Positions 3,273 through 55,311 of a DNA stretch of 64,000 nt are shown one piece after another. This stretch comes from Amycolatopsis viridis (GTDB lineage: Bacteria > Actinomycetota > Actinomycetes > Mycobacteriales > Pseudonocardiaceae). Position numbers and translations under genes: made by a program. The stretch is from positions 4,898,001 through 4,962,000 of the forward strand of contig NZ_JAANOU010000001.1 of NCBI RefSeq assembly GCF_011758765.1, written 5' to 3'. The notes under the pieces were generated by a model. The model saw only the letters and a list, made by a program, of their open reading frames with translations. It did no database searches and was not told the origin of the DNA. Numbering within the stretch: the stretch's first letter is position 1; each line of letters begins with the position of its first letter.

Positions 3273-3282
3273 GCGGGTCGAG

Positions 3283-3312
3283 GAGCCCCGGACCAGACCC
3301 GGTCCGGGGCTC
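3283..3312. terminator. Bidirectional hairpin terminator
   Basis: Perfect 12-bp stem GAGCCCCGGACC / GGTCCGGGGCTC with loop AGACCC, lying between the converging ends of the SCO5389-family gene (+) and the SPOR-like gene (-). There is no long U-tract, as is common in actinobacteria. Confidence 0.75.
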
Positions 3313-3315
3313 TGC

Positions 3316-3513: not shown

Positions 3514-3531
3514 GCCCCGAGCTTCGCACCC

Positions 3532-3547
3532 GGCGCGGACCCGCGCC
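3532..3547 (-). terminator. Short hairpin after the secretion-type operon
   Basis: GGCGCG / CGCGCC stem with a GACC loop, 5 bp beyond the end of the last gene of the minus-strand operon (stop at 3553). Possible terminator; the stem is short and no U-run follows. Confidence 0.35.
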
Positions 3548-3552
3548 AGCGG

Positions 3553-4545
3553 TCAGGGGCGGTAACGGTACGGCAGCTCCGTCGGCTGACCGGTCGGGCC
3601 GAAGTCGTGCTCCGGCTGGTCCTCCTCGAACCAGTCCCGGTTCGCCCTCGCAGGCGCCGCCGGCTCCGCATCGGCCGTGCGGCCGCCGAGGGGAATACCG
3701 GATGCCGGGGTGGGCTGGGGCTGCGGCGGCAACGGCTCCGTGAACCGCGGCCGCTCATCCGCCGGTTCCATCGTGCGCCACGCCTGCGGGTCGGTGACCG
3801 GCCGCGTCTCCGGCTGCGCGGGCAGCGCCGCGCCGGCCCCGGGAACGGCGCGCGCGCCCGGTTCGGACACCGGCGCCCAGCCGCTCTCCCGCGCCGGCAC
3901 CGGCCCGGCGCTCGTCTCGGGCGGTGTTCGCGGTGCCGCGAGCTTCTTCGGCGGCTCCGGCAGCGGCGGCACCTCGGGCGACGGCGTGGTCGGCGTGGTC
4001 CGCCACACCGGGGCCGGCGGAATGATCATCGGCGCGGCCCGGGGCGCTTCCGGGGCCGGGGCGGCGGCCTGCGGTTCACGGCGGGTCTGCCCGCGCGCCG
4101 GGATCGGGTCCAGGCACGGCACCAGAACCGTGGTGTTCTCCGGCTCCTCGACCTTCCGCCCGCTGCGCTCGCGGTAGATCATGTCGCCGTCGCCGTCGAT
4201 CTCGACCAGGTAGCCGACCTCCGCGAGTTGCTCCTCGTCCAGGTTGACGAGCTTCTCGTAGCGCGACGGCACGGTCCGGTACACCGGCCACGACAACGAC
4301 CGGTGCTGCTGGTGGAACTGCGACAGCAGACCGGCCATCTGCTGCTGCCACGGCAACGACATCGACTCGGCCAGCGACCGCGGCAGCACGACGTAACCCT
4401 CGTCCACGCCGGGCAGCGTCTGCGACAGGTAGTCGGCCAGCGGAGTGCTGGACGCGGGCGGCCCCGAACGCGGCGGGGGCGGCGGGGCACCGAACAGATC
4501 GCCCAGCTGCGCCGGCTTCTTGCGCTTACCGAACTTCTTCGCCAC
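3553..4545 (-). CDS. Unrecognised proline-rich protein of the T4SS-like operon
   Basis: A 330-residue protein starting at GTG 4545, with a strong AGGAGG Shine-Dalgarno that overlaps the stop of the upstream NlpC/P60 gene. It opens with a basic MAKKFGKRKK segment and a proline-rich linker. A folded part follows at about residues 35-150 (SQTLPGVDEGYVVLPRSLAE, SLPWQQQMAGLLSQFH and an acidic EIDGDGDMIYRE). The rest, about 170 residues, is low-complexity, rich in Pro, Ala and Glu. No signal peptide or membrane segment is visible, so it should be cytoplasmic. I do not recognise the family. As the last gene of the secretion-type operon it may be an adaptor or cytoplasmic component, which is inference. 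Confidence 0.65.
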   Translation of the reverse strand: MAKKFGKRKKPAQLGDLFGAPPPPPRSGPPASSTPLADYLSQTLPGVDEGYVVLPRSLAESMSLPWQQQMAGLLSQFHQQHRSLSWPVYRTVPSRYEKLVNLDEEQLAEVGYLVEIDGDGDMIYRERSGRKVEEPENTTVLVPCLDPIPARGQTRREPQAAAPAPEAPRAAPMIIPPAPVWRTTPTTPSPEVPPLPEPPKKLAAPRTPPETSAGPVPARESGWAPVSEPGARAVPGAGAALPAQPETRPVTDPQAWRTMEPADERPRFTEPLPPQPQPTPASGIPLGGRTADAEPAAPARANRDWFEEDQPEHDFGPTGQPTELPYRYRP

Positions 4546-11850: not shown

Positions 11851-12564
11851 CGCGTACTCCCAGGTGCGAGGAGTGTGGGTGTCGGGTGGGTCAGCGCGGG
11901 GCGGGCCCACGAGGTCGGAAAGTTCGTCCGGTCTGTCTAGCCCATCATGGCGTCACGAGCTGTGACGGTCAAAGCGCTCACTGTCGAACGGCAGTCCATT
12001 CACACCAGGCACAGTACGGCCACTTCCACTGAACTCGTCGCCCTCCATCATCGTGGCAAGACCGCTCAGGGTTAACCCCCTGCACCCGGATTTCCTAGTG
12101 TGGGCAGGGACTCACTCACAGGCGCAATCTCGGTTCACTCTGGGTGTGCGGTATCGCTGTTCGACGGCGCGGGGAACAGTGTGGCATGACCCGTTCGGCC
12201 GCATCGCACGTACCCGGGCGTGACGGCTTGTCCGGGCGAGTCGATCATCCGATCCGGCGAACGTGATCACGGAGCGCCCGGGCGACCCCACCAGGTGATC
12301 ACGAAGCGTGATCGGTAAGCACTTTCGGATGAACTCGGGTGTAAGCGCTCGCCCGACCAGTCCGTGCTGCGCGAGTCGGCCTCGGCGGGGACGCAAACGC
12401 TTTCGCGCGGACGGGCGGGCCCGGCGGCCCGGTCGCCGCCGCACGGCCGGGACGAGATGCTCCCCTCCCCAGCAGCCGCCGACGCCGGTCCTCAGAGCGC
12501 CGCGGCTCCGCGGGCGCCCGCGCACGGGAAGTGGCTGGCGACGAGTCCGGGAGCCGAAGCCGGC

Positions 12565-12598
12565 CGCGATCACCTCCGCGATCACCTCCGCGATCACC
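12565..12598. repeat. 12-bp tandem repeat, 2.8 copies
   Basis: Unit CGCGATCACCTC repeated from 12565, with the third copy ending at the CACC step. The GATCAC core is the same as in the palindromes at 12262-12271 and 12295-12302, which suggests a shared binding site, though that is inference. Confidence 0.7.
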
Positions 12599-12630
12599 CG
12601 CAGCGTGGCAGCGGACCGCAGAGCCGGGGA

Positions 12631-12670
12631 CTGGGGTACTGGGGCACCGGGGCATCGGGGGACAGGGGCG
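12631..12670 (+). repeat. 8-bp G-rich tandem repeat abutting rnpB
   Basis: Five imperfect 8-mers, each with a run of at least four G (CTGGGGTA, CTGGGGCA, CCGGGGCA, TCGGGGGA, CAGGGGCG), preceded by one more GGGG run. The array ends at the base before the 3' end of rnpB. The plus strand is the template for rnpB, so a G-quadruplex could form on the template just past the end of the RNA. Confidence 0.75.
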
Positions 12671-24149: not shown

Positions 24150-24525
24150 GCACCCTCGCCGCCCGGTGGGTGCCCGCTGCGGCGGCGCCGGAACACCTGG
24201 TGCCGGCGCGCAGCGGCAGCGAGGAGGAGCTGCGCCGGCCGGGATGCTCGACTCCGCCGGCGACCCGCTGATTCCATTGCTCGCAGCCGTGCTGCTGGGC
24301 GTGGCCACGCTGGGCCGGGCCGCCGGGTTCACCCGCGACCGGCTGTCGCCGGCGGTCAGCGGGCGGCTCGGCCCGATCGCCGGGATCGTCCTGATCGGCG
24401 CCGCGAGCGGCGGGTTCAAGCAGATCCTGGTGGACGCGGGTGCCGGCAACGGTGTCCGCAGCCGGGCTGGTGTCCGGCCTGGTAATCAACGATGCCGCCC
24501 ACCGCGCCCAGGCCTCCGGCGCGTG
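24146..24525 (+). pseudogene. gntP: Remnant of GntP-family gluconate permease
   Basis: Three pieces resembling GntP occur in different frames. From GTG 24146, coupled to gntK, comes an N-terminal-like STLAARWVPAAAAPEHLV. From about 24255, in another frame, comes a middle section GDPLIPLLAAVLLGVATLGRA, then GRLGPIAGIVLIGAASGGFKQ and ILVDAGAGNGV. From about 24445 a third frame gives ATVSAAGLVSGLVIND. An intact GntP has about 450 residues; here only about 100 remain, so at least two internal deletions have happened. The usual gntR-gntK-gntP order explains its position. It cannot encode a working permease. Confidence 0.75.
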
Positions 24526-41765: not shown

Positions 41766-44700
41766 TCACGGCCCCGTCACCTGCCTGCCCTCCGGCCGCA
41801 ACGGGCAGGTGCCCTTCGCCGGGCACCGGTCGCAGTCCGGGTTTTCCGTGGCGTCGTACTCCGGCCCGGTGGCGGACGCCGCGACCTTCCGCACGAGCTC
41901 GAGCCACTCGCGGCCGCTCTCCTCGTCCAGCGCGGGCTGTTCCCGCACCGCCGCGCCCGTCCGGTTGTGGGACTTCGCCAGGTAGACCAGCTTCGCGCCC
42001 CCCGGGCGCCGCGCATCGCCGAACGCTCCCAGCAACACCGACAGCTGGTAGGCCGCCAGCTGCGGGTTGAGCTCCGCGTCCGCGGCGCTGACCACGGTCT
42101 TCCCGGTCTTCAGGTCGACGATCACCGGGCGGCCGTCGCGGTCGTGCTCGAGCCGGTCGACCCGGCCACGCAACTTGACCAGCAACCCGTCCGACCCCAC
42201 CGGCAGTTCGACCTCGATGTCCTGCTCGATGCCCATCTGCCGCAACTCGTGCCGGGACGTCTCCAGCCACGCCAGGAAGTTCCGCACCATCTGCTCGACC
42301 CGGTTCCGTTCCCGCCGCGAGAACCACGGCGCGCCCGCGTCGACCCTCGCCCACGCCTCGTCCAGCGCCCGGCGCAGCCCTTCCTCGTCCATGCCGCCCG
42401 CCGCGGCCTGCGCCAGCTCGTGCACCAGCGTGCCGGTGATCGCCGCGAGCTGGGCCGGGTCGCTGCCGCCGTGCCGCTCGATCAGCCACCGCAGCGGGCA
42501 CTTCTTCAGAGTCTCCACAGTGGACGGGGAAATCCGGACGACGTCGCCGGTGGCGTAGAGCGGCGCGTGCGTCGACGGCTCGACCGTGCCGTACCACGAA
42601 TCCGGGTGCGCGCCCGGTACCCCGGCCCGCGCCAGCCGCGCCAGCTGCCGCGCCGCCCTGGCCCGGCGCTCCGGCTCCACCTCCGGATCGCACACCGCCC
42701 GCCGCAGGTCACCGACCAGCTCGGCCAGCACCAGCGACCGCCCCGGCGGCTTGACCCGGGAGTCCAGCCCGGACTCGTCGGCGGTGTTCGCCTCCAGGTC
42801 GTCGACGAACCGGGAGGGCTGCTCGTCCTCCCCGATCACCGCGCTGACCAGCAACGTCCGCTTCGCCCGGGCGGCAGCGAGGTAGAACAGCCGCCGCTCC
42901 TCGGCGAGGATCGGCGCGGTGGCCGAGACGGTCTCCTCCTCCAGCCCGGACAGCAGGTCCACCAGCCGCTCGACCCCGAGCAGCGACCCCCGCAGCCGCA
43001 GGTCCGGCCAGCTGCCCTCCTGCACGTTCGCGACGGCCACCACCGTCCACTCGCGACCCGCGGCCCCGTGCGCGCTCAGCAGCGAAACGCCCGCACCGCG
43101 CATCGCCACCGGCGCCAGGCTGTCACCGGCGATGTTCTGCGCGGACAGGTAATCGGCAAAGGCCGCCACGCTCGCCCTCGGCAGCCGGTCGACGTAGGTG
43201 CCGGCGGCGTGGAACAGGGCCACCACCGCGTCCAGATCGCGGTCGGCCTGCGCACCGAGCGTGCCGCCACGCGCGGACAGCCGGACCCACCGCTTCTGCA
43301 GCCCGCTGTCCCGCCACACGTCCCACAGCACCTGCTCGACACCGGCGCCGCGCTCGATGGCCGCGCGGGCGGCGGCGATCAGCCCACCCACCCGGCGGAT
43401 CGGTGCCGCCTCGCCCTCCGCGAGGCCGCCGAGCTTGTCGTTGTCCCGCAACACTTCCACGAGCAGCTCGTCGCTGGACCGCTCGCCACCGCCGGCCAGT
43501 TCCAGCCGGCGCAGACCGCGGCGCATCCGCCGCAGCGCCAGCGGATCCGCGCCGCCGAGCGGCGACGCCAGCAGCATCTCGGCGGTGTCGGCGTCCAGCA
43601 GGTCCGGATCACCGGCCACCCGCAGCACCGCGAGCAGCGGCCGGACGGCGGGCTGGCGGGCCAGCGGCAGCTCCTCCGCGGCGGACGCGATCGGCACCCC
43701 GGCAGCGCGCATCGCACGCTGCAACACGGGCAGCGACCGGGCCGGCGAACGCACCAGCACCGCCATGTCCGACCACGGCACCCCGTCGATCAGGTGCGCG
43801 CGGCGCAACTGGTCGGCGACCCAGCTCGCCTCCGCGGACGGCGTCGGCAGCAACCGCACCTTGACTTCACCCGGCTCGGACCCGGGATCGACGCTGATCG
43901 CGCGGTGCCGGTTGGCGCCCGGCAGGGTGGCGCCGAGCTTCCGCACCGCCTCGTGCACGGCCAGGCTCATCCGGTGCGTGCGGGTCAGTGTCACGGTGCG
44001 CGCGCCGTCGGCGTCGGCGCGGGTCAGCAGGTTCGGATCGGCGCCGCGGAAGGAAAAAATCGCCTGATCCGGGTCGCCGGCCACGACGAAGTCCTCGGCC
44101 GCCGTGCCGAGCAGCCGCAGCAGCCGGAACTGCAGGTGGTCCAGGTGCTGGGCGTCGTCGACGAACACGTGCCGGATCCGCGCCTGCTCCCGCGCCAGCA
44201 GGTCCGGATCGCCTTCCAGCTCGACGAGCGCGCTCGCGACCAGCTCGGCGGCGTCCAGGGCCGGTGAACCGGGCGCGCCCAGCGCGTTGCCGCCCGCGCC
44301 CTGCAACACGGTGACCTCTTCGTACTGGCGCCAGAAGAGGCCGGCGGCGACCCACTCCGGACGGTCCTTGCGGCGGCCGAGCTTGACCAGGTCCTCCGGG
44401 CCAAGGCCGCGCTCGGCGGCACGCAGCAGCAGGTCCCGCAGTTCCTCGGCGAACCCCGGTACGGCCAGCGCGGGACGCAGCTGCTCGGGCCAGTTCTCCG
44501 CGCCCTGCGCGAGGTCGCCGGCCAGCAGATCGCGGACCACCACGTCCTGCTCCGGGCTGGACAACAGCCGCGGCGCCGGCACGTCCTGCAGCCCGGCCTG
44601 CAGGCGCAGCAGCGAGAACGCGTACGAGTGGACCGTCCGCACGATCGGCTCCCGGATCGTGCGCGGCAACCCACCGCTCTCGCGGGCCGTGACGCGCCGC

Positions 44701-44981
44701 GTGATCTCGGCGCGCAGGGCGCCGGCGGCGCGGCGGGACGCGGTGAGCACCAGCAGGCTCTCCGGATCGGCACCACCCTGGATGCGGGCCGCGGCCGCGC
44801 TGGTGATCAGGGTGGTCTTGCCGGTGCCCGGGCCGCCGAGGACCCGGACGAACCCGCGCGGCGCCGCCAGCACCGCCCGCGCATCACCGTCCCAGAGCTC
44901 CGGGCGCGGCTCGGCGACGGGCGGCCGAACCAGCCGCGCGCCCGCCCGGGACCGGGTGCCCTCTCCGCTCACGTCTGGCAT
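41766..44981 (-). CDS. adnA: Helicase-nuclease AdnA subunit
   Basis: A 1071-residue partner of AdnB. I start at ATG 44981; the open frame runs to 45020, with a weak ribosome-binding site in both cases. Walker A GGPGTGKTT is at residues 49-57. Helicase motifs include HVFVDDAQHLDHLQFRLL (Walker B with DD instead of DE) and VAGDPDQAIFSFRGADP. The nuclease domain has LRGRVDRLEHD and VIVDLKTGKT near residue 955. Four cysteines, one in LKKCPLRW (about 827) and three in CDRCPAKGTC (about 1050), form the iron-sulfur staple of AddB/AdnA nucleases. AdnAB resects double-strand breaks with 5' to 3' polarity, for single-strand annealing in mycobacteria. Confidence 0.9.
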   Translation of the reverse strand: MPDVSGEGTRSRAGARLVRPPVAEPRPELWDGDARAVLAAPRGFVRVLGGPGTGKTTLITSAAAARIQGGADPESLLVLTASRRAAGALRAEITRRVTARESGGLPRTIREPIVRTVHSYAFSLLRLQAGLQDVPAPRLLSSPEQDVVVRDLLAGDLAQGAENWPEQLRPALAVPGFAEELRDLLLRAAERGLGPEDLVKLGRRKDRPEWVAAGLFWRQYEEVTVLQGAGGNALGAPGSPALDAAELVASALVELEGDPDLLAREQARIRHVFVDDAQHLDHLQFRLLRLLGTAAEDFVVAGDPDQAIFSFRGADPNLLTRADADGARTVTLTRTHRMSLAVHEAVRKLGATLPGANRHRAISVDPGSEPGEVKVRLLPTPSAEASWVADQLRRAHLIDGVPWSDMAVLVRSPARSLPVLQRAMRAAGVPIASAAEELPLARQPAVRPLLAVLRVAGDPDLLDADTAEMLLASPLGGADPLALRRMRRGLRRLELAGGGERSSDELLVEVLRDNDKLGGLAEGEAAPIRRVGGLIAAARAAIERGAGVEQVLWDVWRDSGLQKRWVRLSARGGTLGAQADRDLDAVVALFHAAGTYVDRLPRASVAAFADYLSAQNIAGDSLAPVAMRGAGVSLLSAHGAAGREWTVVAVANVQEGSWPDLRLRGSLLGVERLVDLLSGLEEETVSATAPILAEERRLFYLAAARAKRTLLVSAVIGEDEQPSRFVDDLEANTADESGLDSRVKPPGRSLVLAELVGDLRRAVCDPEVEPERRARAARQLARLARAGVPGAHPDSWYGTVEPSTHAPLYATGDVVRISPSTVETLKKCPLRWLIERHGGSDPAQLAAITGTLVHELAQAAAGGMDEEGLRRALDEAWARVDAGAPWFSRRERNRVEQMVRNFLAWLETSRHELRQMGIEQDIEVELPVGSDGLLVKLRGRVDRLEHDRDGRPVIVDLKTGKTVVSAADAELNPQLAAYQLSVLLGAFGDARRPGGAKLVYLAKSHNRTGAAVREQPALDEESGREWLELVRKVAASATGPEYDATENPDCDRCPAKGTCPLRPEGRQVTGP

Positions 44982-45040
44982 GGAATCACGACGGACCGAC
45001 AGAACCACGCACCGGCACACCCTGGCGGTAGTTTGGTCAC

Positions 45041-45328
45041 GTGGACGAGGAGCTGCACGAGCGGGTGCGCGAGGTGATCGCCACCGTGCCGCCGGGGAAG
45101 GTCGCCACCTACGGCGACATCGCGGCCGTCGCCGGAGCCCCGTCGCCGCGGATGATCGGCCGCGTCCTGTCCGAGGACGGCGCCGACCTGCCGTGGCACC
45201 GGATCCTGCGCGCCAACGGCACGCCCGCGCCGCACCTCGTGCACCGGCAGCTGGAGCTGCTGCGGGCCGAGGGCGTGCTGGCGGACGGGCAGAAGGTGGA
45301 CCTGCGCACCTACCGCTGGCGGCCGTAG
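45041..45328 (+). CDS. Alkyltransferase-like protein (MGMT family, ATL)
   Basis: A 95-residue protein starting at GTG 45041, divergent from adnA. It matches the C-terminal domain of O6-alkylguanine-DNA alkyltransferase: IATVPPGKVATYGDIAAVAGAPSPRMIGRVL and LPWHRILRANG. The alkyl-accepting Cys of the PCHR motif is replaced by Trp (PWHR), the mark of ATL proteins, which bind alkylated guanine without repairing it and hand it to nucleotide excision repair. The neighbouring order with adnAB recalls Rv3204. Complete and of normal length. Confidence 0.9.
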   Translation: MDEELHERVREVIATVPPGKVATYGDIAAVAGAPSPRMIGRVLSEDGADLPWHRILRANGTPAPHLVHRQLELLRAEGVLADGQKVDLRTYRWRP

Positions 45329-45350
45329 AGCCGCCGGCCCGGCCCCTGGG

Positions 45351-46160
45351 TCACCGGGTGCCCAGTTCCGCCACCAGCAGCTTGACCAGCGCACCGAGCC
45401 GCTGCCGCTCGGGTTGCCGCGTCGGGATGCCCGCCTCGGTGAATGGTGCCGCGGTCACCGGGCCGACGCATGCGCACACCACGTCCCCGCGCAGTGCGCG
45501 CACCAGCTCGTCGTAGCTGCCGCGCTCGCGGGCCAGCCGCAGCAGGTTCGCGCTGGCCGGGGCGCTGGTGAACGCCAGTGCCCGCACCGCGCCGCCGAGC
45601 ACCCCGTCGAGCAGTTCGTGTGCCGGGCGCAGGTCGGCGGGCCACTCCCACCGGTACGGCTGCACCTCGGTCACCCGCGCCCCGGCGCCGCGCAACGGCT
45701 CGGTGTGTTCCGGCAGCGGCGAGCCGTGCAGCTGGACCGCCAGCCGCGCGCCGGTCACCCCGGCGGCCAGGATGTGCCGGAACAGCTCGCGGTTGCTCTC
45801 GCCCGGCGCGGCCCACTCCTCGGTCAGGCCCATCCCGCGCACCGCACCCGCGCCTTTCGGTCCGCGGACGAAGATCCGGGCCCGGCCCAGCGAGGCGAGC
45901 AGCTCGTCGCGCAGCCCCCAGCCCTCGGCGGCCTCGATCCAGCCGCGGAACCCGGCGCCGGTGGTGACCGCCAGGAGGTCCAGCGGCTCGGCCAGGACCT
46001 CCTGGGTGGCCGCGCGCAGCCGGTCATCGCCGGACAGCGGCACGATGTGGATCAACGGCGCGTGCCGCACGGTCGCGCCGTGCCGTTCCAGCGCCCCGAT
46101 GAACTCGCCGGCCCGCCGCTCCGCGGTCACCCCGATCGTGACGCCACTCAGCTCACCCAT
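45351..46160 (-). CDS. Uroporphyrinogen-III synthase-like protein, stand-alone
   Basis: A 269-residue HemD-fold protein starting at ATG 46160, overlapping the stop of the WYL regulator by 8 bp. It has the two-domain HemD layout: GVTIGVTAERRAGEFIGALERHGATVRHAP, LAVTTGAGFRGWIEAAEGWG, LAVQLHGSPLP, LAFTSAPASANLL and VVCACVGPVTAAPFTEAGI. HemD closes the tetrapyrrole ring to make uroporphyrinogen III. It is clearly paralogous to the larger HemD protein at 49927-51039 but lacks the winged-helix tail. Coupling to a WYL regulator, not to haem genes, leaves its physiological role open. Confidence 0.75.
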   Translation of the reverse strand: MGELSGVTIGVTAERRAGEFIGALERHGATVRHAPLIHIVPLSGDDRLRAATQEVLAEPLDLLAVTTGAGFRGWIEAAEGWGLRDELLASLGRARIFVRGPKGAGAVRGMGLTEEWAAPGESNRELFRHILAAGVTGARLAVQLHGSPLPEHTEPLRGAGARVTEVQPYRWEWPADLRPAHELLDGVLGGAVRALAFTSAPASANLLRLARERGSYDELVRALRGDVVCACVGPVTAAPFTEAGIPTRQPERQRLGALVKLLVAELGTR

Positions 46161-47118
46161 AGATCGCACCCATCCGGCCGACGGCCGCCGCCACCTGGTC
46201 GCGCAGGTCCGCCGGCTCCAGCACCTGCAGCTCGGGCCCGAACCGCAGCAGCTCGCCGAGCGCGGGCGCGCCCGGTTCGACCGGCAACTCCACGCGCAAC
46301 CACCCGTCCTCGTCCGGGGTTCCGCGGCACTCGCGCAGGGCGCGGGCGCCGACCGCCCCGAGGTAGAACGGTACGAGGTCGCGGCCCAGCGGGGACAGCC
46401 GCACCACGGCGACGCGCGGGTACATCCGCCGCTCGAACTGCTCGGACCACTCCCGCCAGTACCCGGTGAGGTCGAAGTCCGCCGGGCGCTCGAACACCGC
46501 TCCGGGTTCCACCGAGAGGATGCGGGACACCCGGTAGGTGCGGATCGCCCCCTCGCAGCGGGCGGCGAGGTACCAGTTCCCGGCCTTGAGGATCAGCCCG
46601 AGCGGCTCCAGCACGCGGTTCGTCTCGCTGTGGTCCCACCGCTGGTAGCGCACGGACACCCGCCGCGAATCCCACACCGCCTGCGCCACCCCGGCCAGCA
46701 GCGGCAGGCTTTCGATGCCGCGGAACCAGCCGGGCACGTCGAGCACGAACCGCTCGGCGACCTTCCCCGCGCGGCTGCGCAGTTCCTCCGGCAGCGCGGC
46801 GTACAGCTTGAGCTGCGCGGCGGTCAGCACCGTGCCCAGGCCCAGCTCGGCGGCCGCGTCCGGCAGCCCGGCCAGCGGGAGCGACTGGGCCTCCTCCCCG
46901 GTCAGGCCGGTCAGGCGGGTGCGGTAGCCGTCGAGCAGCCGGTAGCCACCGGCCCGGCCGCGCTCGGCGTAGACCGGCACACCGGCGGCCGACAGCGACT
47001 CGATGTCGCGGTACACGGTCCGCACCGACACCTCGAGCTCCGCGGCCAGCTCGTCGGCGGTCATCCGGCCGCGGCTCTGCAACAGCAGCAGCACCGACAG
47101 CAACCTGCTCGCACGCAT
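46153..47118 (-). CDS. YafY-type WYL-domain transcriptional regulator
   Basis: A 321-residue regulator starting at ATG 47118. The N-terminal HTH_11 domain (residues 2-60) reads RASRLLSVLLLLQSRGRMTADELAAELEVSVRTVYRDIESLSAAGVPVYAERG. The WYL domain (about 135-215) has QRWDHSETNRVLEPLGLILKAGNWYLAARCEGAIRTYRVSRI, followed by a WCX-type C-terminus. WYL proteins sense ligands, often single-stranded DNA or small molecules, and repress neighbouring genes. It diverges from a DUF3224 gene with two adjacent palindromes between them, so autoregulation and control of DUF3224 are likely. Confidence 0.85.
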   Translation of the reverse strand: MRASRLLSVLLLLQSRGRMTADELAAELEVSVRTVYRDIESLSAAGVPVYAERGRAGGYRLLDGYRTRLTGLTGEEAQSLPLAGLPDAAAELGLGTVLTAAQLKLYAALPEELRSRAGKVAERFVLDVPGWFRGIESLPLLAGVAQAVWDSRRVSVRYQRWDHSETNRVLEPLGLILKAGNWYLAARCEGAIRTYRVSRILSVEPGAVFERPADFDLTGYWREWSEQFERRMYPRVAVVRLSPLGRDLVPFYLGAVGARALRECRGTPDEDGWLRVELPVEPGAPALGELLRFGPELQVLEPADLRDQVAAAVGRMGAIYG

Positions 47119-47125
47119 GGGTCCA

Positions 47126-47157
47126 GTATTCCGCGAATACCTGACAGAAGATGTCAG
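47126..47157. promoter_or_regulatory. Two abutting palindromes, probable WYL operator region
   Basis: GTATTCCGCGAATAC at 47126-47140 (arms GTATTC/GAATAC) is directly followed by CTGACAGAAGATGTCAG at 47141-47157 (arms CTGACA/TGTCAG). They fill the 61-bp gap between the divergent WYL and DUF3224 starts. One or both may bind the WYL regulator. Confidence 0.7.
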
Positions 47158-47179
47158 TTCGAGGTCGCACAGTGGGGAC

Positions 47180-47572
47180 ATGACGAACACTTTCACCATG
47201 CGCAGCTGGGACGAGAAGGTCGTGAGCGGCCCGGGGGACGGCCCGCGGTACGCCCACGCGCACGCCACCTTCACCTACTCGGGTGTCATCGAGGGCGAGT
47301 CGGCGTGCGACTACCTGCTGTACTACCCGGGCGAGGGCTACACCGGCAGCACGCAGACCGCGCCGGGGTTCGAACGGATCGAGGGCACCGTGGACGGCCG
47401 GAAGGGCAGCTTCGTGATCCGGCACGAGGTGGCCTACGGCGCCGAGGGCATCCAGGGCACGTTCACCGTGGTCGAGGGCTCGGGCACCGGCGAGCTGGCC
47501 GGGATCACCGGCAGCGGCACGATCGGCGGGGCGAGCGAAACCGTGTCCTACACCTTCGACCACCGGTTGTGA
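47180..47572 (+). CDS. DUF3224 family protein
   Basis: A 130-residue beta-rich protein starting at ATG 47180, preceded by GTGGGG. Typical DUF3224 features are FTMRSWDEKVVSG, HATFTYSGVIEGESACDYLLYYPGEG, GFERIEGTVDGRKGSFVIRHEVAYG and GTGELAGITGSGTIGG, suggesting the allene-oxide-cyclase-like barrel of the family. No catalytic function is known. It is transcribed away from the WYL regulator, and the next gene starts within its stop codon (TGATG), so both probably respond to that regulator. Confidence 0.8.
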   Translation: MTNTFTMRSWDEKVVSGPGDGPRYAHAHATFTYSGVIEGESACDYLLYYPGEGYTGSTQTAPGFERIEGTVDGRKGSFVIRHEVAYGAEGIQGTFTVVEGSGTGELAGITGSGTIGGASETVSYTFDHRL

Positions 47573-48693
47573 TGCTGGAGGTCGATCGCGAGCAGGTGCT
47601 CGCCCACCGGATCGCGGCGCAGGGACTGCACCGCGAGGAGGCGGACGCGGCCGCGCTGGCCGTGTTCGACCTCGGCCTGCAGAGCACGCAGCGCGACACC
47701 GCGGCGATCTCGCTCGCGGCGCGCCTGCCCGGCCCGGTCACCGAGGAGTCCTTCGCCGACGATCCGCGGTTCGTGCTGGCCTGGACGCACCGCGGAGCGC
47801 CGCACTTCCACCGCGCCACCGAGATCGGGCAGGTCACCGCCGCGCTGGTCCCGCTCGGCGAGGACGACGCGATGGCGCGGATGGGCTGGCAGCGCAAGCA
47901 GGTCGAGGCGGCCGGGATGAGCGCCACCGACAGCCTGTTCACCGCGGCGAAGGCGATCCGCAAGGTCGTCACGCGCACGATGACCAAGGGCGCGGTGAGC
48001 GAGGCGGTCACCAGGATCATCCCGGACGGGTTGTCCTACTGGTGCCGCGGCTGCCAGGCCACCCACATCCTGGAGCAGCTCATGCGGCTCGCGGCGATCC
48101 ACGGCGGCGCGCGGCTGGAGGCCGCCGCCCAGCCCGCGACGCTGGCGCCGCTGACCGGCCGTCCGCGGATGCGCACCACGCCGGACCCGGCGGCCGCGAC
48201 CGCGGTCGTCCGCGACTACCTGCGGCTGCACGGCCCGGCCACGCCGTCCGAGGCCGCCGACTTCGTCGGCACGAAGGTGGCGGTGGCGCGGCGGATGTGG
48301 CCGGACGATCTGGCGGAGGTGCGTGTGGCGGGCCGCACCGCGTACCTCCCCGAGTCCGATGTGGACGCGCTGGCGGACCCGCCGGAGCCGGACCTGGTGC
48401 GGTTGCTGCCACCGTGGGACCCGTTCCTCCAGTCGCGGGACCGGGCCCTGCTGGTGCCGGACCGGGCGCGGCAGAAGGAGGTCTGGCGGATCCTCGGCAA
48501 CCCGGGTGCGCTGCTCGCCGGCGGCGAGGTGGCCGGCGTGTGGCGGACCAAGGGCAGCGGCCGGAAGCGGCTGGACTTCACGATCACCGCGTTCGATCCG
48601 CTGCCGCCCCCGGCACGCGCGGCGGCGGAAGCGGAAGCCGAGCGCGTCGCGGCGGCTCGTGGTTTCGCGGACCTGCGGATCACCTGGTCCTAG
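47572..48693 (+). CDS. Winged-helix DNA-binding protein (AlkZ/YcaQ-like)
   Basis: A 373-residue protein starting at ATG 47572, one base into the DUF3224 stop. It belongs to the HTH_42 group, with LGLQSTQRDTAAISLAARL, FVLAWTHRGAPHFHRATEIG, YWCRGCQATHILEQLMRLAA and LPPWDPFLQSRDRALLVPDRARQKEVWR. Related proteins include AlkZ and YcaQ, DNA glycosylases that unhook interstrand crosslinks or protect antibiotic producers from alkylating products. The QxD/QxQ catalytic motif could correspond to the QSTQRD segment near residue 38. Its end overlaps the ArsR-VOC gene by 4 bp. Confidence 0.75.
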   Translation: MLEVDREQVLAHRIAAQGLHREEADAAALAVFDLGLQSTQRDTAAISLAARLPGPVTEESFADDPRFVLAWTHRGAPHFHRATEIGQVTAALVPLGEDDAMARMGWQRKQVEAAGMSATDSLFTAAKAIRKVVTRTMTKGAVSEAVTRIIPDGLSYWCRGCQATHILEQLMRLAAIHGGARLEAAAQPATLAPLTGRPRMRTTPDPAAATAVVRDYLRLHGPATPSEAADFVGTKVAVARRMWPDDLAEVRVAGRTAYLPESDVDALADPPEPDLVRLLPPWDPFLQSRDRALLVPDRARQKEVWRILGNPGALLAGGEVAGVWRTKGSGRKRLDFTITAFDPLPPPARAAAEAEAERVAAARGFADLRITWS

Positions 48694-49208
48694 GCCGGGG
48701 TGGCGATTTGGATGAGGTTGCCGCAGGTGTCGTCGAAGACGGCGGTGGTCACCGGGCCCATCTCGGTCGGCTCCTGGGTGAACCGGACGCCCAGGGAGCG
48801 CAGCCGCTCGTACTCGGCGCGCACGTCGTCGACCGTGAACATCGTGAACGGGATCCCGTCGGCGACGAGCGCGTCCCGGAACGGCTTCGCCGCCGGATGA
48901 CCGCTCGGTTCGAGGAGCAGTTCGGTACCTTCCGGGTTGTCGGGTGACACCACGGTGAGCCACCGCGCCCCGCCCGCGGGCACGTCGTGCTTCTTCACGA
49001 AACCCAGGCGGTCTCGCAGCACCTCGACGTGCTGGAGGCCGCCGGACTGGTGGAGATCAGGCGAGACCGCCTGCCGCGACGACGTGAGGCCGTGGTTGGT
49101 CGCCAGCCGGCCGCAGATCTCGAAGAGCGTCTGTCCATCCCGGACGGTCAGTTCGTCGAGGATCGTCCGCCGGGTGGGATCGGCCAAGGCCTTGAAGACG
49201 TCACCCAC
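48690..49208 (-). CDS. Rearranged ArsR-VOC fusion with an inverted internal segment
   Basis: A 172-residue open frame from GTG 49208. The N-terminus VGDVFKALADPTRRTILDEL, then LFEICGRLATNHGLTSSRQAVS, is a typical ArsR winged-helix start. The C-terminus from GFVKKHDVPAGGARWLTVVSP to GNLIQIATPA is a typical VOC/glyoxalase end. Between them the sequence reads PDLHQSGGLQHVEVLRDRL, which fits neither family. The opposite strand at 49018-49060 encodes QHLDVLEAAGLVEIR, exactly the missing recognition helix, and 13-bp inverted repeats bound the segment. The usual ArsR end and VOC beginning, about 60 residues, are also absent. As it stands, neither DNA binding nor VOC metal binding should work. Confidence 0.8.
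   Translation of the reverse strand: MGDVFKALADPTRRTILDELTVRDGQTLFEICGRLATNHGLTSSRQAVSPDLHQSGGLQHVEVLRDRLGFVKKHDVPAGGARWLTVVSPDNPEGTELLLEPSGHPAAKPFRDALVADGIPFTMFTVDDVRAEYERLRSLGVRFTQEPTEMGPVTTAVFDDTCGNLIQIATPA
49005..49073. repeat. 13-bp inverted repeats bounding an inverted 43-bp segment
   Basis: CAGGCGGTCTCGC at 49005-49017 and its exact reverse complement GCGAGACCGCCTG at 49061-49073. Flipping the 43 bases between them restores an ArsR recognition helix in the minus-strand gene without changing the frame or adding stops. Confidence 0.9.
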
Positions 49209-49219
49209 GGCGTCACGAT

Positions 49220-49239
49220 AGGCAAGTCGTCGCTTGCCT
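49220..49239. promoter_or_regulatory. Palindrome upstream of the ArsR-VOC gene
   Basis: AGGCAAG, a 6-nt gap and CTTGCCT, centred about 22 bp before the GTG start at 49208. It is a likely former autoregulatory operator. The site is intact although the DNA-binding helix of the gene is disrupted. Confidence 0.6.
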
Positions 49240-49240
49240 G

Positions 49241-49930
49241 TCAACCCGGCGCGTCCCCGGTGAGAGTGAACTGCCGCCGCGCCCGCCGGTAGCGGGCCAG
49301 CACCAGGCCCACCACATCCGGGTGCACGCCCAGCGGGTCCGCGACCACGTCCGCACCGGCGTCGGCCACCCTGCGCTGGAACAGGCCCGGCGCCAGCAGC
49401 CACGACGCCACCGCCACCCGACGTCCGCGGGCCCGCGCGACGACGTCGGCGATCGCCGGCCGAGCCGTGGCCGCGTAACCGACCTGCACGGAGACGCCGA
49501 GCAGCGCGCCCAGCGTGTCCGCGGCGAAGCGCACCTCGGCCAGCGCACCCGGGTCGCTGGATCCGGCCGCGGCCAGCACGACGGCGTCACCTGCGCGGTA
49601 ACCCGCCTGCTCGAGCCGGTCCCGCAGCACCCCGATCAGTTCCGGCGCCGGGCCGAACGGTTCGGCCACGACGGCGTGGCGGTGCCGGCTCGCCGCGATC
49701 TGCGCCGGAATGTCCGTGCGCACGTGGTAGCCGGACGCGAGGAACGCCGGGACGACGACCGCCTGGCAGCCGCGCACCGAGTCCAGCACGGTCGTTACGT
49801 CGGGCTGCCGGACGTCGGCATAGGCCACCCGCACCGGCACCGGTGCCGCGGCCCGCACCCGGTCCGCCAGTTGCTCGATCACCCGCGCCCCCCGCGGGTC
49901 GCGGGTGCCGTGGGCCGCCAGCACGATCAT
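49241..49930 (-). CDS. Sirohydrochlorin chelatase (CbiX/SirB family)
   Basis: A 229-residue protein starting at ATG 49930, overlapping the HemD-type gene stop as ATGA. It has two CbiX half-domains: IVLAAHGTRDPRGARVIEQLADRV with the first metal-binding His, QAVVVPAFLASGYHVRTDIPAQIAASRHRH with the second, and a second repeat beginning VVLAAAGSSDPGALAEVRFAADTL. The enzyme inserts iron (or cobalt) into sirohydrochlorin. In this operon the product would be siroheme, the prosthetic group of NirB. It is the last gene of the nitrate operon. Confidence 0.85.
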   Translation of the reverse strand: MIVLAAHGTRDPRGARVIEQLADRVRAAAPVPVRVAYADVRQPDVTTVLDSVRGCQAVVVPAFLASGYHVRTDIPAQIAASRHRHAVVAEPFGPAPELIGVLRDRLEQAGYRAGDAVVLAAAGSSDPGALAEVRFAADTLGALLGVSVQVGYAATARPAIADVVARARGRRVAVASWLLAPGLFQRRVADAGADVVADPLGVHPDVVGLVLARYRRARRQFTLTGDAPG

Positions 49931-51039
49931 CGTTCCACCGCCAGCCGGTATCCGCGCTTCACCACGGTCTGCACGAGCCTCCCTTCGCCGAGCGAGGTGC
50001 GCAGCCGCCCGATCGCGGTCTCCACCGCGTGTTCCGCGCCGCCCCCGGGCAGCGCCGAGGCCAGCTCCCGGCGCGACACCACCCGCCCCGGTTCGCGGGC
50101 CAGCGCCCGCAGCACCGCCATCGGCGCGGGTGCCACCTCGCACAGCTGACCGTCCACAATGGCCGCCTGCCCGCGCAGCTCGAGGCACCGGCCGGCGGCG
50201 CGCAGTTTCGGCGACCGCTCGGCCAGGGCCTGCGCCACCACCCGCGCGAGCGCCCCGATGCGGGCCCGCTCGGGCTGGACCGCCGGGATCCCGGCCGCGG
50301 CCAGCGGTGCGGCCGTGACCGGGCCGACGCACGCCACCAGCACCCGGTGCGTCAGCGCGTCGACCAGCCCGGCCAGCCGCCCGGTGCGCCTGGCCACCGC
50401 CAGCGTGCTCGCCGCCGCCGGTGCGCTGGTGAACGGCAGCGCATCGACCGCACCGTCCAGCACCGCGTCGATCAACCGGTCCAGCGGGCCCGGATCGGCC
50501 GGCCCGACCCAGCGGTAGACCGGCACCTGGATGACCTCGGCCCCGGCCTCCCGCAGGGCCTCGGCGAAGTACGGCAGCGGCTCGCCGTGCAGCTGCACCG
50601 CGATCCGCCGGCCCGCCACGCCGGACTCCAGCAGGTGCTGGAGCAGCTCGGCGCTGCTCTCCGACGCCGGCGCGTAGCTCTCCGACAGGCCGGCCGCCCG
50701 GATCGCGCCCCGGGCCTTCGGGCCGCGGGCCAGCAGTGCCGCCGTGCCGAGCCGGTCGACGAGCTCCTCGCCCAGCCCCCATCCCTCGGCCGCCTCGACC
50801 CAGCCGCGGAACCCGATCCCGGTGGTCGCCACGACCACGTCCACCGGTTCCGCCAGCAGCCGTTCGGTCGCGGCGCGCAGCTCGGTGTCGTCGGCGAGCG
50901 GCACGATCCGGATGGCCGGCCCGTACCGCACCGTCGCACCCTTGCGCACCAGCAGCGCGCCGAGCTCGTCCGCGCGGCGGGCCGCGGTGATGCCGACCGC
51001 GAACCCGGTGAGCGGCAGGGTTCCGGAAGCCTCGATCAT
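49927..51039 (-). CDS. Uroporphyrinogen-III synthase with C-terminal winged helix
   Basis: A 370-residue fusion starting at ATG 51039, overlapping the nirD stop as ATGA. Residues 1-265 form the HemD domain (FAVGITAARRADELGALLVRKGATVRYGP, VVATTGIGFRGWVEAAEGWG, IAVQLHGEPLP, VLVACVGPVTAAPLAAAGI). Residues 280-370 form an OmpR/PhoB-type winged helix: APMAVLRALAREPGRVVSRRELASALPGGGAEHAVETAIGRLRTSLGEGRLVQTVVKRGYRL. The same fusion occurs next to nir genes in mycobacteria (Rv0260c, as I recall). It may feed siroheme synthesis, regulate the operon, or both. Confidence 0.85.
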   Translation of the reverse strand: MIEASGTLPLTGFAVGITAARRADELGALLVRKGATVRYGPAIRIVPLADDTELRAATERLLAEPVDVVVATTGIGFRGWVEAAEGWGLGEELVDRLGTAALLARGPKARGAIRAAGLSESYAPASESSAELLQHLLESGVAGRRIAVQLHGEPLPYFAEALREAGAEVIQVPVYRWVGPADPGPLDRLIDAVLDGAVDALPFTSAPAAASTLAVARRTGRLAGLVDALTHRVLVACVGPVTAAPLAAAGIPAVQPERARIGALARVVAQALAERSPKLRAAGRCLELRGQAAIVDGQLCEVAPAPMAVLRALAREPGRVVSRRELASALPGGGAEHAVETAIGRLRTSLGEGRLVQTVVKRGYRLAVER

Positions 51040-51386
51040 GCTTGGAGGTACACCACGCCCTCGACCACCCGCACCGGGTAGGTGCGCACGGCCACCGTCT
51101 CGTCGTCCAGGCAGTACCCGGTGGCCAGCTCGAACCGGTGCTTCAGCATGGGCGACGCGACGTGCGGCACGCCGCGGACGTCACCGACGATCCCCCGCGA
51201 CAGCACGGCAGCCCTGGTGAACGGATCCATATTGGACAGGGCGTGTACCTCGCCGGTCGCCGTGCGGAAGATCGCCACCTGCCTGCCGCCGGGCAGCAGG
51301 GCGGCCACGCCGCGGCCGGGAACGAGCCGGTCGACCGGGCAGATCTCCACGACGCCCGTCGCGTGCTTCTCCTCCACCGCGGTCAT
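51036..51386 (-). CDS. nirD: Nitrite reductase small subunit
   Basis: A 116-residue Rieske-like protein starting at ATG 51386, overlapping the nirB stop as ATGA. Landmarks are VEICPVDRLVPGRGVAALLPGGRQVAIFRTATGEVHALSNMDPFTRAAVLSRGIVGD and SPMLKHRFELATGYCLDDETVAVRTYPVRV. As is usual for NirD, the Cys/His cluster ligands of true Rieske proteins are lost (NMDPF in place of the first pair). NirD partners NirB in NADH-dependent reduction of nitrite to ammonium. Confidence 0.9.
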   Translation of the reverse strand: MTAVEEKHATGVVEICPVDRLVPGRGVAALLPGGRQVAIFRTATGEVHALSNMDPFTRAAVLSRGIVGDVRGVPHVASPMLKHRFELATGYCLDDETVAVRTYPVRVVEGVVYLQA

Positions 51387-53926
51387 CGCGGCACCACCTC
51401 CGGGACACCCAGCAGGACGGGCACTTTCTGCTCGCGTTCCGCGCGGAACGAGATCGTCGGGTCGGGCACGCCCGGCGCGTTGACGAACGAGGTGAACCGG
51501 GCGAGCTTCTCCGGGTCCTCCAGCACGCCGCGCCACTCGTCGGCGTAGTTCGCCACGTGCTTGGCCATCGCGGCGTCCAGCTCGTCGCAGATGCCGAGCG
51601 CATCGTCGACGACGACCGCCCGCAGGTGGTCCAGCCCGCCGTCCATCTCCTCGATCCACGGCGCGGTGCGCTGCAACCGGTCGGCGGTGCGGACGTAGAA
51701 CATCAGGAACCGGTCGAGGTAGCTGATCAGCGTGTCCTTGTCCAGGTCGGACGCCAGCAGCCCGGCGTGCCGGGGCAGCGCGCCGCCGTTGCCGCCGACG
51801 TAGAGGTTCCACCCCTTCTCGGTGGCGATCACGCCGAAGTCCTTGCCGCGGGCCTCGGCGCACTCCCGGGCACAACCGGAGACGCCGGCCTTGAGCTTGT
51901 GCGGTGAGCGCAGGCCCCGGTAACGCAGCTCCAGTTCGATCGCCAGGCCGACGCTGTCCTGCACGCCGTAACGGCACCAGGTGGACCCGACACACGATTT
52001 CACGGTGCGCAGCGACTTGCCGTAGGCGTGCCCGGACTCCATCCCCGCGTCCACCAGCCGCTTCCAGATGAGCGGCAGCTGGTCCACCGTCGCGCCGAAC
52101 AGGTCGATGCGCTGCCCGCCGGTGATCTTGGTGTAGAGCCCGAATTCCTCGGCGACCTCGGCGATCACCTTCAGCTTCACCGGGGTGATCTCGCCGCCGG
52201 GGATGCGCGGCACGACCGAGTAGGTGCCGTTGCGCTGGAGGTTCGCCAGGAAGTGGTCGTTGGTGTCCTGCAGCGCGGCCTGCTCGCCGGCCAGCACGTG
52301 GCCGCCCGTGCGGTCGGTCGTGTCGAGCGTGGCGAGGATCGAGGCGACGGCCGGTTTGCAGATCTCGCAGCCGGCGCCGGTGCCGTGCCGGGCGATCAGC
52401 TCGCCGAACGTGGTGATCCGGGTGGCGCGGACGATCTGGAACAGCTCCTGCCGGGAGTGGGTGAAGTGCTCGCACAGCGCCGTCGACTGCTCGACCCCGC
52501 AGACGTCCAGCAGCTTCGTCAGCATCGGCACGCACGACCCGCAGGTGGTGCCGGCCTTGGTGCAGCCCTTGATCTTCGCGACGCTGTCACAGCCCTGGTG
52601 CACGATCGCGTCGGTGATCGCGCCCTTGCTCACCGCGTTGCACGAGCAGACCTGCGCCTCCTCGGGCAGCGCCTCCACACCCACCGCGCCCGAGGCGCCC
52701 TCGGGGGCGAGCATCGCCGCCGGGTCCGCCGGCAGCGGGCTGCCGACCAGCGGGCGGAGCAGGGTGTAGGCGCTCGCGTCACCGACCAGGACACCGCCCA
52801 GCAGCAGGCGCTTGCCATCCGAGTCCGCTTCGGACACGACCAGCTTCTTGTAGTAGCCGCCGACCGCGTCGGAGAGCACAACCTCGGCCGAGTTCTCGGT
52901 GGCGCCGTGGGCGTCGCCGAAGCTGGCCACATCCACGCCCATCAGCTTGAGCTTGGTGGACAGGTCCGCGCCGGGGAATTCGCCGGACCGGCCGAGCAGC
53001 TGCGCGGCGACGATCTCGGCCATCGTGTAGCCGGGGGCGACGAGACCGTAGCACCGGCCCCCGACCGCGGCGCACTCGCCGACCGCCCAGATGTCCGGAT
53101 CGCTGGTGCGGCACGAGGAGTCCGTGACGATCCCGCCGCGCTCGCCGACCTCGAGGCCGGCCGAGCGGGCCAGCTCGTCGCGGGGCCGGACACCGGCGGA
53201 GAACACCACCAGGTCCAGGTCCAGCTCGGTGCCGTTGGTGAGGGTGGTGACGAGCCGGTCGCCGTCCGGCTCGATCCGCTCCGCCGACGTTCCGGTGTGG
53301 ACCGTCAGGTCGAGGTCGGTGACCAGCTTGCGCAGCAGCCGTCCGCCGCCGTCGTCGACCTGGATCGGCATGAGCCGCGGCGCCATCTCGACCACGTGCG
53401 GGGACAGGCCCATGTCCCGCAGCGCCTTGGCCGCCTCCAGCCCGAGCAGGCCGCCGCCGACCACCATCGCGGCCGCGCGGCCGCGCCGGGTCGCCTTCGC
53501 CCGCTCCACCGCGGCGCGGATCGCGTCCAGGTCCTCGATCGTGCGGTAGGCGAAGCAGCCCGGCAGGTCGTGCCCGGGCACCGGCGGCACGAACGGACGC
53601 GACCCGGTGGCCAGCACCAGCGCGTCGTAGGGCTGCACGTGCCCGGCAGCCGTGGTGACCTGCTTCGCGGCGCGGTCCACCACGGTCACCGGGTCACCGA
53701 GCCGCAGCCCGACCAGGTCGTCGCCCGCGTAGTCCGACCCGGGCAGGGTGATCGCCTGGGCGTCCCAACCGTCCACGTAGGAGGTCAGGGCGACCCGGTC
53801 GTAGGCCGGGCGCGGCTCCTCGGCGAGCACAACCACCCGCCAGGTGCCCGCGGTGTCCGCGTCCCGCAGAGCCGCCACCAGGCGGTGGCTCACCATGCCG
53901 TTGCCGACGACGACGAGTGTGCGCAT
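51383..53926 (-). CDS. nirB: Nitrite reductase large subunit
   Basis: An 847-residue enzyme starting at ATG 53926, eight bases after AGGAGG; a GTG directly before it is the alternative. The FAD/NAD domain (1-400) starts VVVGNGMVSHRLVAALRDADTAGTWRVVVLAEEPRPAYDRVALTSY. A BFD-like [2Fe-2S] domain has VCSCNAVSKGAITDAI and TTCGSCVP near residues 420-470. The sulfite/nitrite reductase part has the siroheme-[4Fe-4S] ligands in VGSTWCRYGVQD and SGCARECAEARGKD near 640-690. It reduces nitrite to ammonium in the cytoplasm with NADH. Coupled to nirD and siroheme genes. Confidence 0.92.
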   Translation of the reverse strand: MRTLVVVGNGMVSHRLVAALRDADTAGTWRVVVLAEEPRPAYDRVALTSYVDGWDAQAITLPGSDYAGDDLVGLRLGDPVTVVDRAAKQVTTAAGHVQPYDALVLATGSRPFVPPVPGHDLPGCFAYRTIEDLDAIRAAVERAKATRRGRAAAMVVGGGLLGLEAAKALRDMGLSPHVVEMAPRLMPIQVDDGGGRLLRKLVTDLDLTVHTGTSAERIEPDGDRLVTTLTNGTELDLDLVVFSAGVRPRDELARSAGLEVGERGGIVTDSSCRTSDPDIWAVGECAAVGGRCYGLVAPGYTMAEIVAAQLLGRSGEFPGADLSTKLKLMGVDVASFGDAHGATENSAEVVLSDAVGGYYKKLVVSEADSDGKRLLLGGVLVGDASAYTLLRPLVGSPLPADPAAMLAPEGASGAVGVEALPEEAQVCSCNAVSKGAITDAIVHQGCDSVAKIKGCTKAGTTCGSCVPMLTKLLDVCGVEQSTALCEHFTHSRQELFQIVRATRITTFGELIARHGTGAGCEICKPAVASILATLDTTDRTGGHVLAGEQAALQDTNDHFLANLQRNGTYSVVPRIPGGEITPVKLKVIAEVAEEFGLYTKITGGQRIDLFGATVDQLPLIWKRLVDAGMESGHAYGKSLRTVKSCVGSTWCRYGVQDSVGLAIELELRYRGLRSPHKLKAGVSGCARECAEARGKDFGVIATEKGWNLYVGGNGGALPRHAGLLASDLDKDTLISYLDRFLMFYVRTADRLQRTAPWIEEMDGGLDHLRAVVVDDALGICDELDAAMAKHVANYADEWRGVLEDPEKLARFTSFVNAPGVPDPTISFRAEREQKVPVLLGVPEVVPR

Positions 53927-53949
53927 CACCGAAACCTCCTGCTCGCTCG

Positions 53950-55311
53950 TCAGACCCGCGCGCCGGCCAGTGCCAGCCCGCGCTCGCTCACCGGGGCGTC
54001 CGATTTGCGCAGGTAGACCGCCCAGGTGAGCAGGAAGCAGATCCCGTAGAAGGCGAGGAACCCGGCGAACGCCGGCACCCCGCTCCCGGTGTCCAGGAAC
54101 GACTGGCGGAACGCCAGGTTGATGAACAAGCCGCCGAGCGCGCCGATCGCGCCGGCCAGCCCGATCAGCGCACCGGAGCGCTTGCGGGCCGTGCGCATCT
54201 CGGTGGCCTCGTCGGCGCCGGCCGCGATGGCCGCCTCGGCCTTGGTGCGGAAGATCGCCGGGATGCTCTTGTAGGTCGAACCGTTGCCGACCCCCGCCAG
54301 CACGAACAACACGATGAACGCGGTGGTGAACAGCGCCAGTGATCCGGTGTTCGACGCGACGATGAGGATCACGGTCAGCACCGCCATACCGGCGAACGTG
54401 GCGAAGGTGACCCGCATGCCGCCCACCCGGTCGGCCAGCCTGCCGCCGGCCGGGCGGGCGACCGACCCGAGCAGCGGGCCGAGGAACGTGACCGCCGCGG
54501 CCTGCAGCGGAGTGCGGCCGAACTGGTTCTGCAGCACCAGGCCGAAGGCGAAGCTGTAGCCGATGAACGAGCCGAACGTGCCGATGTAGAGGAACGACAT
54601 CACCCAGGTGTGGGCGTCACCGATGATCTCCCGCATCGCTTTCTTGTCGTTGCGGACCGACGCGATGTTGTCCATGAACAGCGCCGAGCACAACGCGGCC
54701 AGCACGATCAACGGGACGTAGACGGCGAGGACGATCCGCGGCGCACCGGTGCCGGCCGTGGCGATGACCAGCAGTCCGAGCAGCTGGATCACGGCCACGC
54801 CCAGGTTGCCGCCGCCGGCGTTCAGGCCCAGCGCCATGCCCTTGGCCCGCTCCGGGAAGAAGGCGTTGATGTTGGTCATCGAGGACGCGAAGTTGCCGCC
54901 GCCGACCCCGCCGAGGGCCGCGACGAGCAGGAACGCCCACAGCGGGGTGCCCGGCTCCATCACGATCGCCGCACCGATGCTCGGGATCAGCAGCAACAGC
55001 GCACTGATGATCGTCCAGTTGCGACCGCCGAACCGCGCCACCGCCCAGCTGTAGGGCAGCCGTGCGATCGCGCCGATCAGGGTCGGCGTCGAGGTCAGCA
55101 GGAACTTGTCGGCCGCGGAGAACCCGTAGCGCGGGTCCATGAACAGGACCATGACCGACCACAGTGTCCAGACGGAGAAGCCGATGTGCTCGGCGAATAC
55201 CGAGAACCAGAGGTTGCGGTGGGCGATCCGCTTGCCGGTGGCCGCCCAGAACGCCGCGTTCTCCGGCTCCCAGTGGTCGATCCAGTGCTTGCGCGGCTTG
55301 GTTGTCGTCAT
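53950..55311 (-). CDS. narK: Nitrate/nitrite transporter (NarK family MFS)
   Basis: A 453-residue MFS protein with 12 predicted membrane segments, starting at ATG 55311, six bases after AGGAGG. Family hallmarks are the N-terminal HWEPENAAFWAATGKRIAHRNLWFSVFAEHIGFSVWTLWSVMV, the nitrate signature AALGGVGGGNFASSMTNINAFFPERAKGMALGLNAGGGNLGVAVIQ, and the second one GVGNGSTYKSIPAIF. It imports nitrate, or exchanges it with nitrite, for the cytoplasmic reductases encoded in the same operon. Confidence 0.92.
   Translation of the reverse strand: MTTTKPRKHWIDHWEPENAAFWAATGKRIAHRNLWFSVFAEHIGFSVWTLWSVMVLFMDPRYGFSAADKFLLTSTPTLIGAIARLPYSWAVARFGGRNWTIISALLLLIPSIGAAIVMEPGTPLWAFLLVAALGGVGGGNFASSMTNINAFFPERAKGMALGLNAGGGNLGVAVIQLLGLLVIATAGTGAPRIVLAVYVPLIVLAALCSALFMDNIASVRNDKKAMREIIGDAHTWVMSFLYIGTFGSFIGYSFAFGLVLQNQFGRTPLQAAAVTFLGPLLGSVARPAGGRLADRVGGMRVTFATFAGMAVLTVILIVASNTGSLALFTTAFIVLFVLAGVGNGSTYKSIPAIFRTKAEAAIAAGADEATEMRTARKRSGALIGLAGAIGALGGLFINLAFRQSFLDTGSGVPAFAGFLAFYGICFLLTWAVYLRKSDAPVSERGLALAGARV

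Follow-up and report, generated by a model that had tools for sequence, protein, structure and literature searches.

Organization of the locus

The window analysed here, a 64-kb stretch of the genome designated G000, which its relatives and its base composition place among the actinobacteria, contains on its minus strand an open reading frame (48690-49208) that reads as ArsR up to QAVS, continues with 18 residues of a different kind and becomes a VOC (glyoxalase-like) protein from LGF onwards (Table 1). Comparison with the intact proteins of the sister species (G001, the closest member of the genus) indicates that neither part is complete. With the HTH_20 profile of Pfam, whose cut-off is 27, the chimera reaches 17.3 bits and the intact ArsR 44.2 bits. 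The Glyoxalase profile passes its cut-off of 20.6 with 54.4 bits and covers profile positions 20-121 of 121, while the intact VOC protein scores 80.4 bits from profile position 4. The frame thus holds neither a complete winged-helix domain above the family score, as an ArsR-family regulator would, nor a complete VOC/glyoxalase-like domain, and the lower scores and later profile start relative to the G001 proteins imply that both ArsR and VOC are truncated.

Table 1. Features of the chimeric locus (window coordinates; L038 is the stretch of G001 at the window's locus)
Feature	Position	Strand	Remarks
Chimeric ORF, 172 codons, GTG start	48690..49208	-	ArsR head, 18 new residues and VOC remnant
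VOC (glyoxalase-like) remnant, LGF to stop, 105 codons	48690..49007	-	without first strand and helix
Novel codons (n=18), PDLHQSGGLQHVEVLRDR	49008..49061	-	wrong-strand reading of ArsR recognition-helix DNA
ArsR head, 49 codons, ancestral orientation, ends QAVS	49062..49208	-	matches G001 ArsR at 48/49 residues
Inverted copy of ancestral arsR DNA	49005..49063	+	59/59 identical to reverse complement of L038 6841-6899
Join 1, microhomology CAG (3 nt)	49005..49007	.	L038 6688-6840 missing here on the map
Join 2, microhomology GCG (3 nt)	49061..49063	.	fits both sides of the join
Left arm, 13-bp inverted repeat	49005..49017	+	reverse copy of L038 6887-6899
Right arm, 13-bp inverted repeat	49061..49073	+	L038 6887-6899 in its original, direct orientation
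Operator-like inverted repeat, GATAGGCAAG-N6-CTTGCCTGTC	49217..49242	.	upstream of the chimera; putative operator

A preliminary description of this DNA had drawn attention to a perfect inverted repeat within the frame, and it was right in letters and coordinates: all 13 of the 13 bases of the two arms are complementary, and they enclose a spacer of 43 nt whose opposite strand encodes the ArsR recognition helix. Its further statement that flipping 49005-49073 restores this helix in frame, with both states free of stops, was confirmed in silico (SSRQAVSQHLDVLEAAGLVEIRRDRLGF; the fuller product is QAVSQHLDVLEAAGLVEIRRDRLGF). The repeat is the sole pair of 13-bp arms in the window with a spacer of up to 60 nt. 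Because at least one such pair also occurs in 8 of 20 Markov-1 random sequences of the window's length, the bare repeat is within chance expectation. Similarly, the open frame of the flipped state is cheap evidence, since stops are scarce at 73% GC (the probability of 20 stop-free codons is about 0.81). What lies far beyond chance is the exact match, over 59 of 59 bases, between the inverted segment and the reverse complement of the syntenic intact gene in G001.

Ancestral state of the locus

In G001, the flanks of the locus are syntenic with the window (42344-49007 at 96.1% and 49061-55172 at 95.0% identity), and two intact genes are present between them, i.e. an arsR gene of 93 codons (L038 6753-7034) and a VOC gene (6370-6756), which overlap by 4 bp if the ATG at 6756 is taken as the VOC start. 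The distance from QAVS to LGF is 54 nt in the window versus 200 nt both in G001 and in a second copy of the pair elsewhere in G000. To place these values, the spacing was measured by script in 104 sources, 80 of which are the best 80 of 502 relatives, a selection that may lack records very close to the window and is not a random sample; 93 had a measurable pair and 11 had none. The 92 pairs other than that of the window, among them those of G001 and the second copy in G000, have spacings of 151-260 nt, and the window is alone among the 93 in its rearranged spacing. Thus, the direction of the change is resolved by outgroups, the intact spacing being found in G001, in the window genome's own second copy and in the other measured pairs.

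Within the genus, a match at E <= 1e-15 was obtained for 12 of 19 genomes; of those listed, the match of the window alone spans positions 1-172 unbroken. Across the family, a DNA query of 101 bp matched 184 of 297 genomes, and among the places listed only the window covers positions 1-101. The longest other family-wide matches among the places listed are those in G280 (1-75) and G019 (18-92), each at 76%.

ArsR and VOC had never formed a single gene at this locus, the ancestral state being a pair of overlapping genes. An ancestral ArsR-VOC fusion gene was considered and rejected, as relatives carry two genes. The starting assumption of the preliminary description, a normal ArsR-VOC fusion from which the junction is missing, was therefore mistaken; the junction is missing because a deletion of 153 bp at this place took away the end of arsR together with the VOC start.

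Among the 93 pairs, only those of the window and L063 (Streptomyces afghaniensis 772) are in frame without an intervening stop. In L063, near 3001-3672, ArsR and VOC share one frame with no stop and lie 219 nt apart; judging from this stretch, a full-length ArsR-VOC fusion seems to exist elsewhere. The shortest spacing outside the window, 151 nt, was found in L100 (Streptomyces sp. DvalAA-43, 3001-3586), where the ArsR head is just 53% identical; this short spacing is perhaps the result of another deletion.

A three-piece map and a model for its origin

Aligned to L038, the window falls into three pieces. The first runs directly up to 49007, corresponding to 6687; the second, 49005-49063, corresponds to 6899-6841 in inverted orientation; and the third is again direct, starting from 49061, corresponding to 6887. 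As a result, 153 bp of ancestral sequence (L038 6688-6840) are lost, 46 bp (6841-6886) survive in the window in reversed orientation only and 13 bp (6887-6899) are present both ways, these last constituting the 13-bp repeat. The net loss is 146 bp and places the VOC remnant in the arsR frame, which is a one-in-three accident. The 13-mer of the repeat occurs a single time in the 13,001 bases of L038, both strands considered, namely at 6887. Because the second (left) arm is absent from the G001 locus, the repeat is a product of the event and not its substrate.

Short-range template switches leave two direct pieces that flank a reverse-complement copy of nearby ancestral sequence and often, though not always, give the descendant a perfect inverted repeat that its ancestor lacked; both are found here. 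We therefore suggest, with a probability of roughly 0.85, that the chimera of 172 codons, which lacks parts of both operon genes, goes back to one short-range inter-strand template switch that joined them. We infer a single, replicative event and a chimera without function. The preliminary description had favoured a one-time template switch or inversion in a decaying gene over its other reading, and the map against G001 both supports this reading and makes it exact.

In this model, the starting point would be the intact overlapping pair, arsR (93 codons) followed by the VOC/glyoxalase-like gene. Synthesis along the plus strand of the window would copy the VOC side up to L038 6687, jump to the opposite strand at 6899 by way of the common CAG, copy backwards from 6899 to 6841, and return to the first strand at 6887 by way of the common GCG, from where it would continue. 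The resulting loss of 153 bp would remove the end and stop of arsR together with the VOC start and the first strand and helix of the VOC protein. In the four-point notation given in the available part of PMC7954356, the order of switch points would be 1-3-4-2 (mirror 3-1-2-4). According to the logic laid out there, the nascent strand cannot have served as template when point 2 is ahead of point 1, so that an inter-strand switch remains. As this is the case in both orders, the donor would be either the sister duplex or the other parental strand rather than the nascent strand.

The event stands out from its surroundings. A scan of the 64-kb window against four adjoining stretches of G001 returned 17 other clusters of differences, not counting the event itself, which falls between alignment blocks; the longest inverted match among them is 12 nt, with none above, and this comparison of the window with G001 contains no other convincing template switch. 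A quasipalindrome-associated mutation was also considered and rejected, one arm being absent in G001 and the ancestral fold being not unusual (z -0.25).

Alternative explanations

The main rival to a single template switch is end joining with fill-in, a two-step route on which staggered double-strand breaks would cause the loss of ~150 bp, the freed arsR fragment would be rejoined backwards, and fill-in of a 13-nt overhang would create the inverted 13-bp duplication. Fill-in at staggered breaks likewise yields inverted duplications. Moreover, the microhomology at the joins is just 3 nt, a weak signal that fits end joining too, and the ancestral sequence offers no unusual hairpin that would have guided a switch, since 75 of 200 shuffled sequences fold as well or better. 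However, this route requires several coordinated breaks and a specific stagger of 13 nt, while a single switch-and-return covers all features, and neither deletion-only nor inversion-only intermediates were found among the relatives examined. We therefore regard end joining as unlikely. An artefact of assembly or library preparation, be it an error of the consensus or a chimeric molecule formed by fold-back in the DNA that was sequenced, is very improbable. The chimera is known from one genome of its species, the arrangement is unique to G000 among the genomes examined, and the completeness of this one-contig genome, 95.41%, is below that of G001 (99). But a fold-back read would add sequence, whereas 153 bp are precisely replaced here and the frame is open; in addition, outside the joins the locus aligns at about 96% without similar anomalies.

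The other possibility raised in the preliminary description, a phase-variable switch in which the 13-bp repeat flips 49005-49073 and so toggles the recognition helix of a regulator, is scarcely credible. It draws on the perfect arms and on a frame that is open in both states, and the available text of PMC8604942 describes yeast loci at which perfect arms of >9 bp permitted inversion of the spacer by template switching in an evolutionarily reversible manner. The spacers listed there are, however, of few bases, compared with 43 here. G001 has the right arm alone, the left arm having arisen with the event, and the flipped state would still be without the ArsR wing and C-terminal part and without the VOC start, so that both genes stay incomplete and no known protein is restored. 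Nor do the two recombinase profiles searched, PF00239 (serine recombinase) and PF00589 (tyrosine recombinase), point to a dedicated or linked enzyme: in G000 as a whole, PF00239 has no match at E <= 1e-3, and the 7 matches to PF00589 all lie outside the window. Finally, the rearranged spacing belongs to the window alone of 93 pairs. No flipped form was seen in the relatives examined. Overall, the mutation reading of the preliminary description is supported and its switch reading is not; given the two genes in G001, its premise of a fusion gene is wrong.

Relation to known systems

The proposed template switch looks like a mutation of a known kind, and the repeat like a scar or fossil rather than an on/off switch. 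The closest likeness is to the four-point model of short-range template switching in the available part of PMC7954356, which has the same three pieces (L-1, 2-3 reversed and 4-R) and in which the descendant gains a perfect inverted repeat that the ancestor lacks; in the window this gain is judged against a sister genome. The orders given as commonest there are 1-4-3-2 and 3-2-1-4, while that of the window event would be 1-3-4-2. In yeast, switching between inverted-repeat arms is likewise inter-molecular and inverts a stretch inside coding DNA; however, in the cases covered by the excerpts of PMC8604942, the repeats pre-exist, spacers are of few bases and at most 2 residues are changed (<=2), whereas the window event had no prior repeat to start from and both fused and shortened two genes. 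Quasipalindrome-associated switching in E. coli, as outlined in the available sections of PMC7202029 and PMC6357072, is also template switching in a bacterium, but it converts an imperfect repeat into a perfect one, while the repeat in the window was made from nothing. Invertons, as characterised in the available portion of PMC11892184, also consist of a short segment between inverted repeats; in contrast to them, the window has no evidence of reversal, no linked invertase and no functional alternative state, and its repeat is a by-product. Our literature search returned nothing that combined template switch mutation with bacterial genomes, and nothing that joined ArsR, glyoxalase, fusion and vicinal oxygen chelate.

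The locus thus offers a natural and well-resolved example of a small template switch that would have cost one gene its end and the neighbouring gene its start, leaving an in-frame chimera; the ancestor-like locus, the donor strip and the two joins can all be read base by base. It further illustrates that a perfect repeat may be a scar even when it catches the eye and its flipped frame is open, and that the presence or absence of both arms in a sister genome is what decides. As far as its available part tells, the pair-HMM model behind the published screen (PMC7954356) effectively disallows events dominated by large deletions, with a maximum of 50 deletions per alignment, whereas the window event loses 153 bp. 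Because template switches with large deletions therefore lie largely outside this screen, such events may be under-counted.

Fate of the chimera and the second copy

An intact arsR and VOC pair, with the two genes in different frames, is present in G000 at G000:C1:1302759-1303411, in a region at about 1.30 Mb that is common to G011, G005 and G013. G001 keeps both sides of this region (96.8% and 96.6%), while the intervening stretch of about 4.3 kb that holds the pair (L045 6742-11051) is missing; of the matches listed for G001, a single one is close to the pair, and it lies at the window's locus. Each of the two sister species therefore seems to have retained one of two copies, as in a reciprocal loss of duplicates. 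Loss of the locus in the window would be tolerable because of the intact second copy at 1.30 Mb, and the chimera is best seen as a redundant gene that is probably in decay.

By dN/dS, no pseudogene signature was seen in the VOC remnant, which compared with G001 has a dN of 0.0673, a dS of 0.2265 and a ratio of 0.297. The medians for window ORFs with a ratio <0.3 are 0.0124, 0.0901 and 0.158, respectively, for a set of 39 that includes the VOC remnant itself and was chosen by lowest ratio, so that some of its members may be spurious. The remnant and G001 differ at 11 residues; the derived state is that of the window at 3 of these and that of G001 at 4, while 4 are unclear. Because of the ratio of 0.297 and the 3 of 11 window-derived differences, the remnant does not resemble an old pseudogene; either constraint on it persists or the event is of recent date. 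For the raised dN and dS, old divergence or recombination is as likely an explanation as relaxed selection. Over the VOC stretch at 48693-49007, silent divergence from G001 is about 2.5x that of the median window ORF, and this high dS may point to recombination with another copy.

It is quite improbable that a new protein under constraint has arisen, in which 18 new residues link the dimer-side head of ArsR to a VOC core, with expression from the old operator, control in trans by the intact ArsR encoded at 1.30 Mb and a repeat that flips occasionally. The intact pairs, in G001 as well as at 1.30 Mb, are each preceded by an operator-like repeat that resembles the one at 49217-49242. Owing to this resemblance, the intact ArsR from the 1.30-Mb copy may still bind the repeat upstream of the chimera.

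Elsewhere in the window, 12440-12657 and 24164-24507 lie between the blocks aligned to G001 and may hold strain- or species-specific content. Downstream of the chimera, the gap between the convergent genes (48677-48715) is shorter than in G001, taking up 39 positions of the aligned cluster compared with 73; the chimera and the plus-strand gene ending at 48693 have overlapping stop codons in the window, while the corresponding genes in G001 end at 6339 and 6370.
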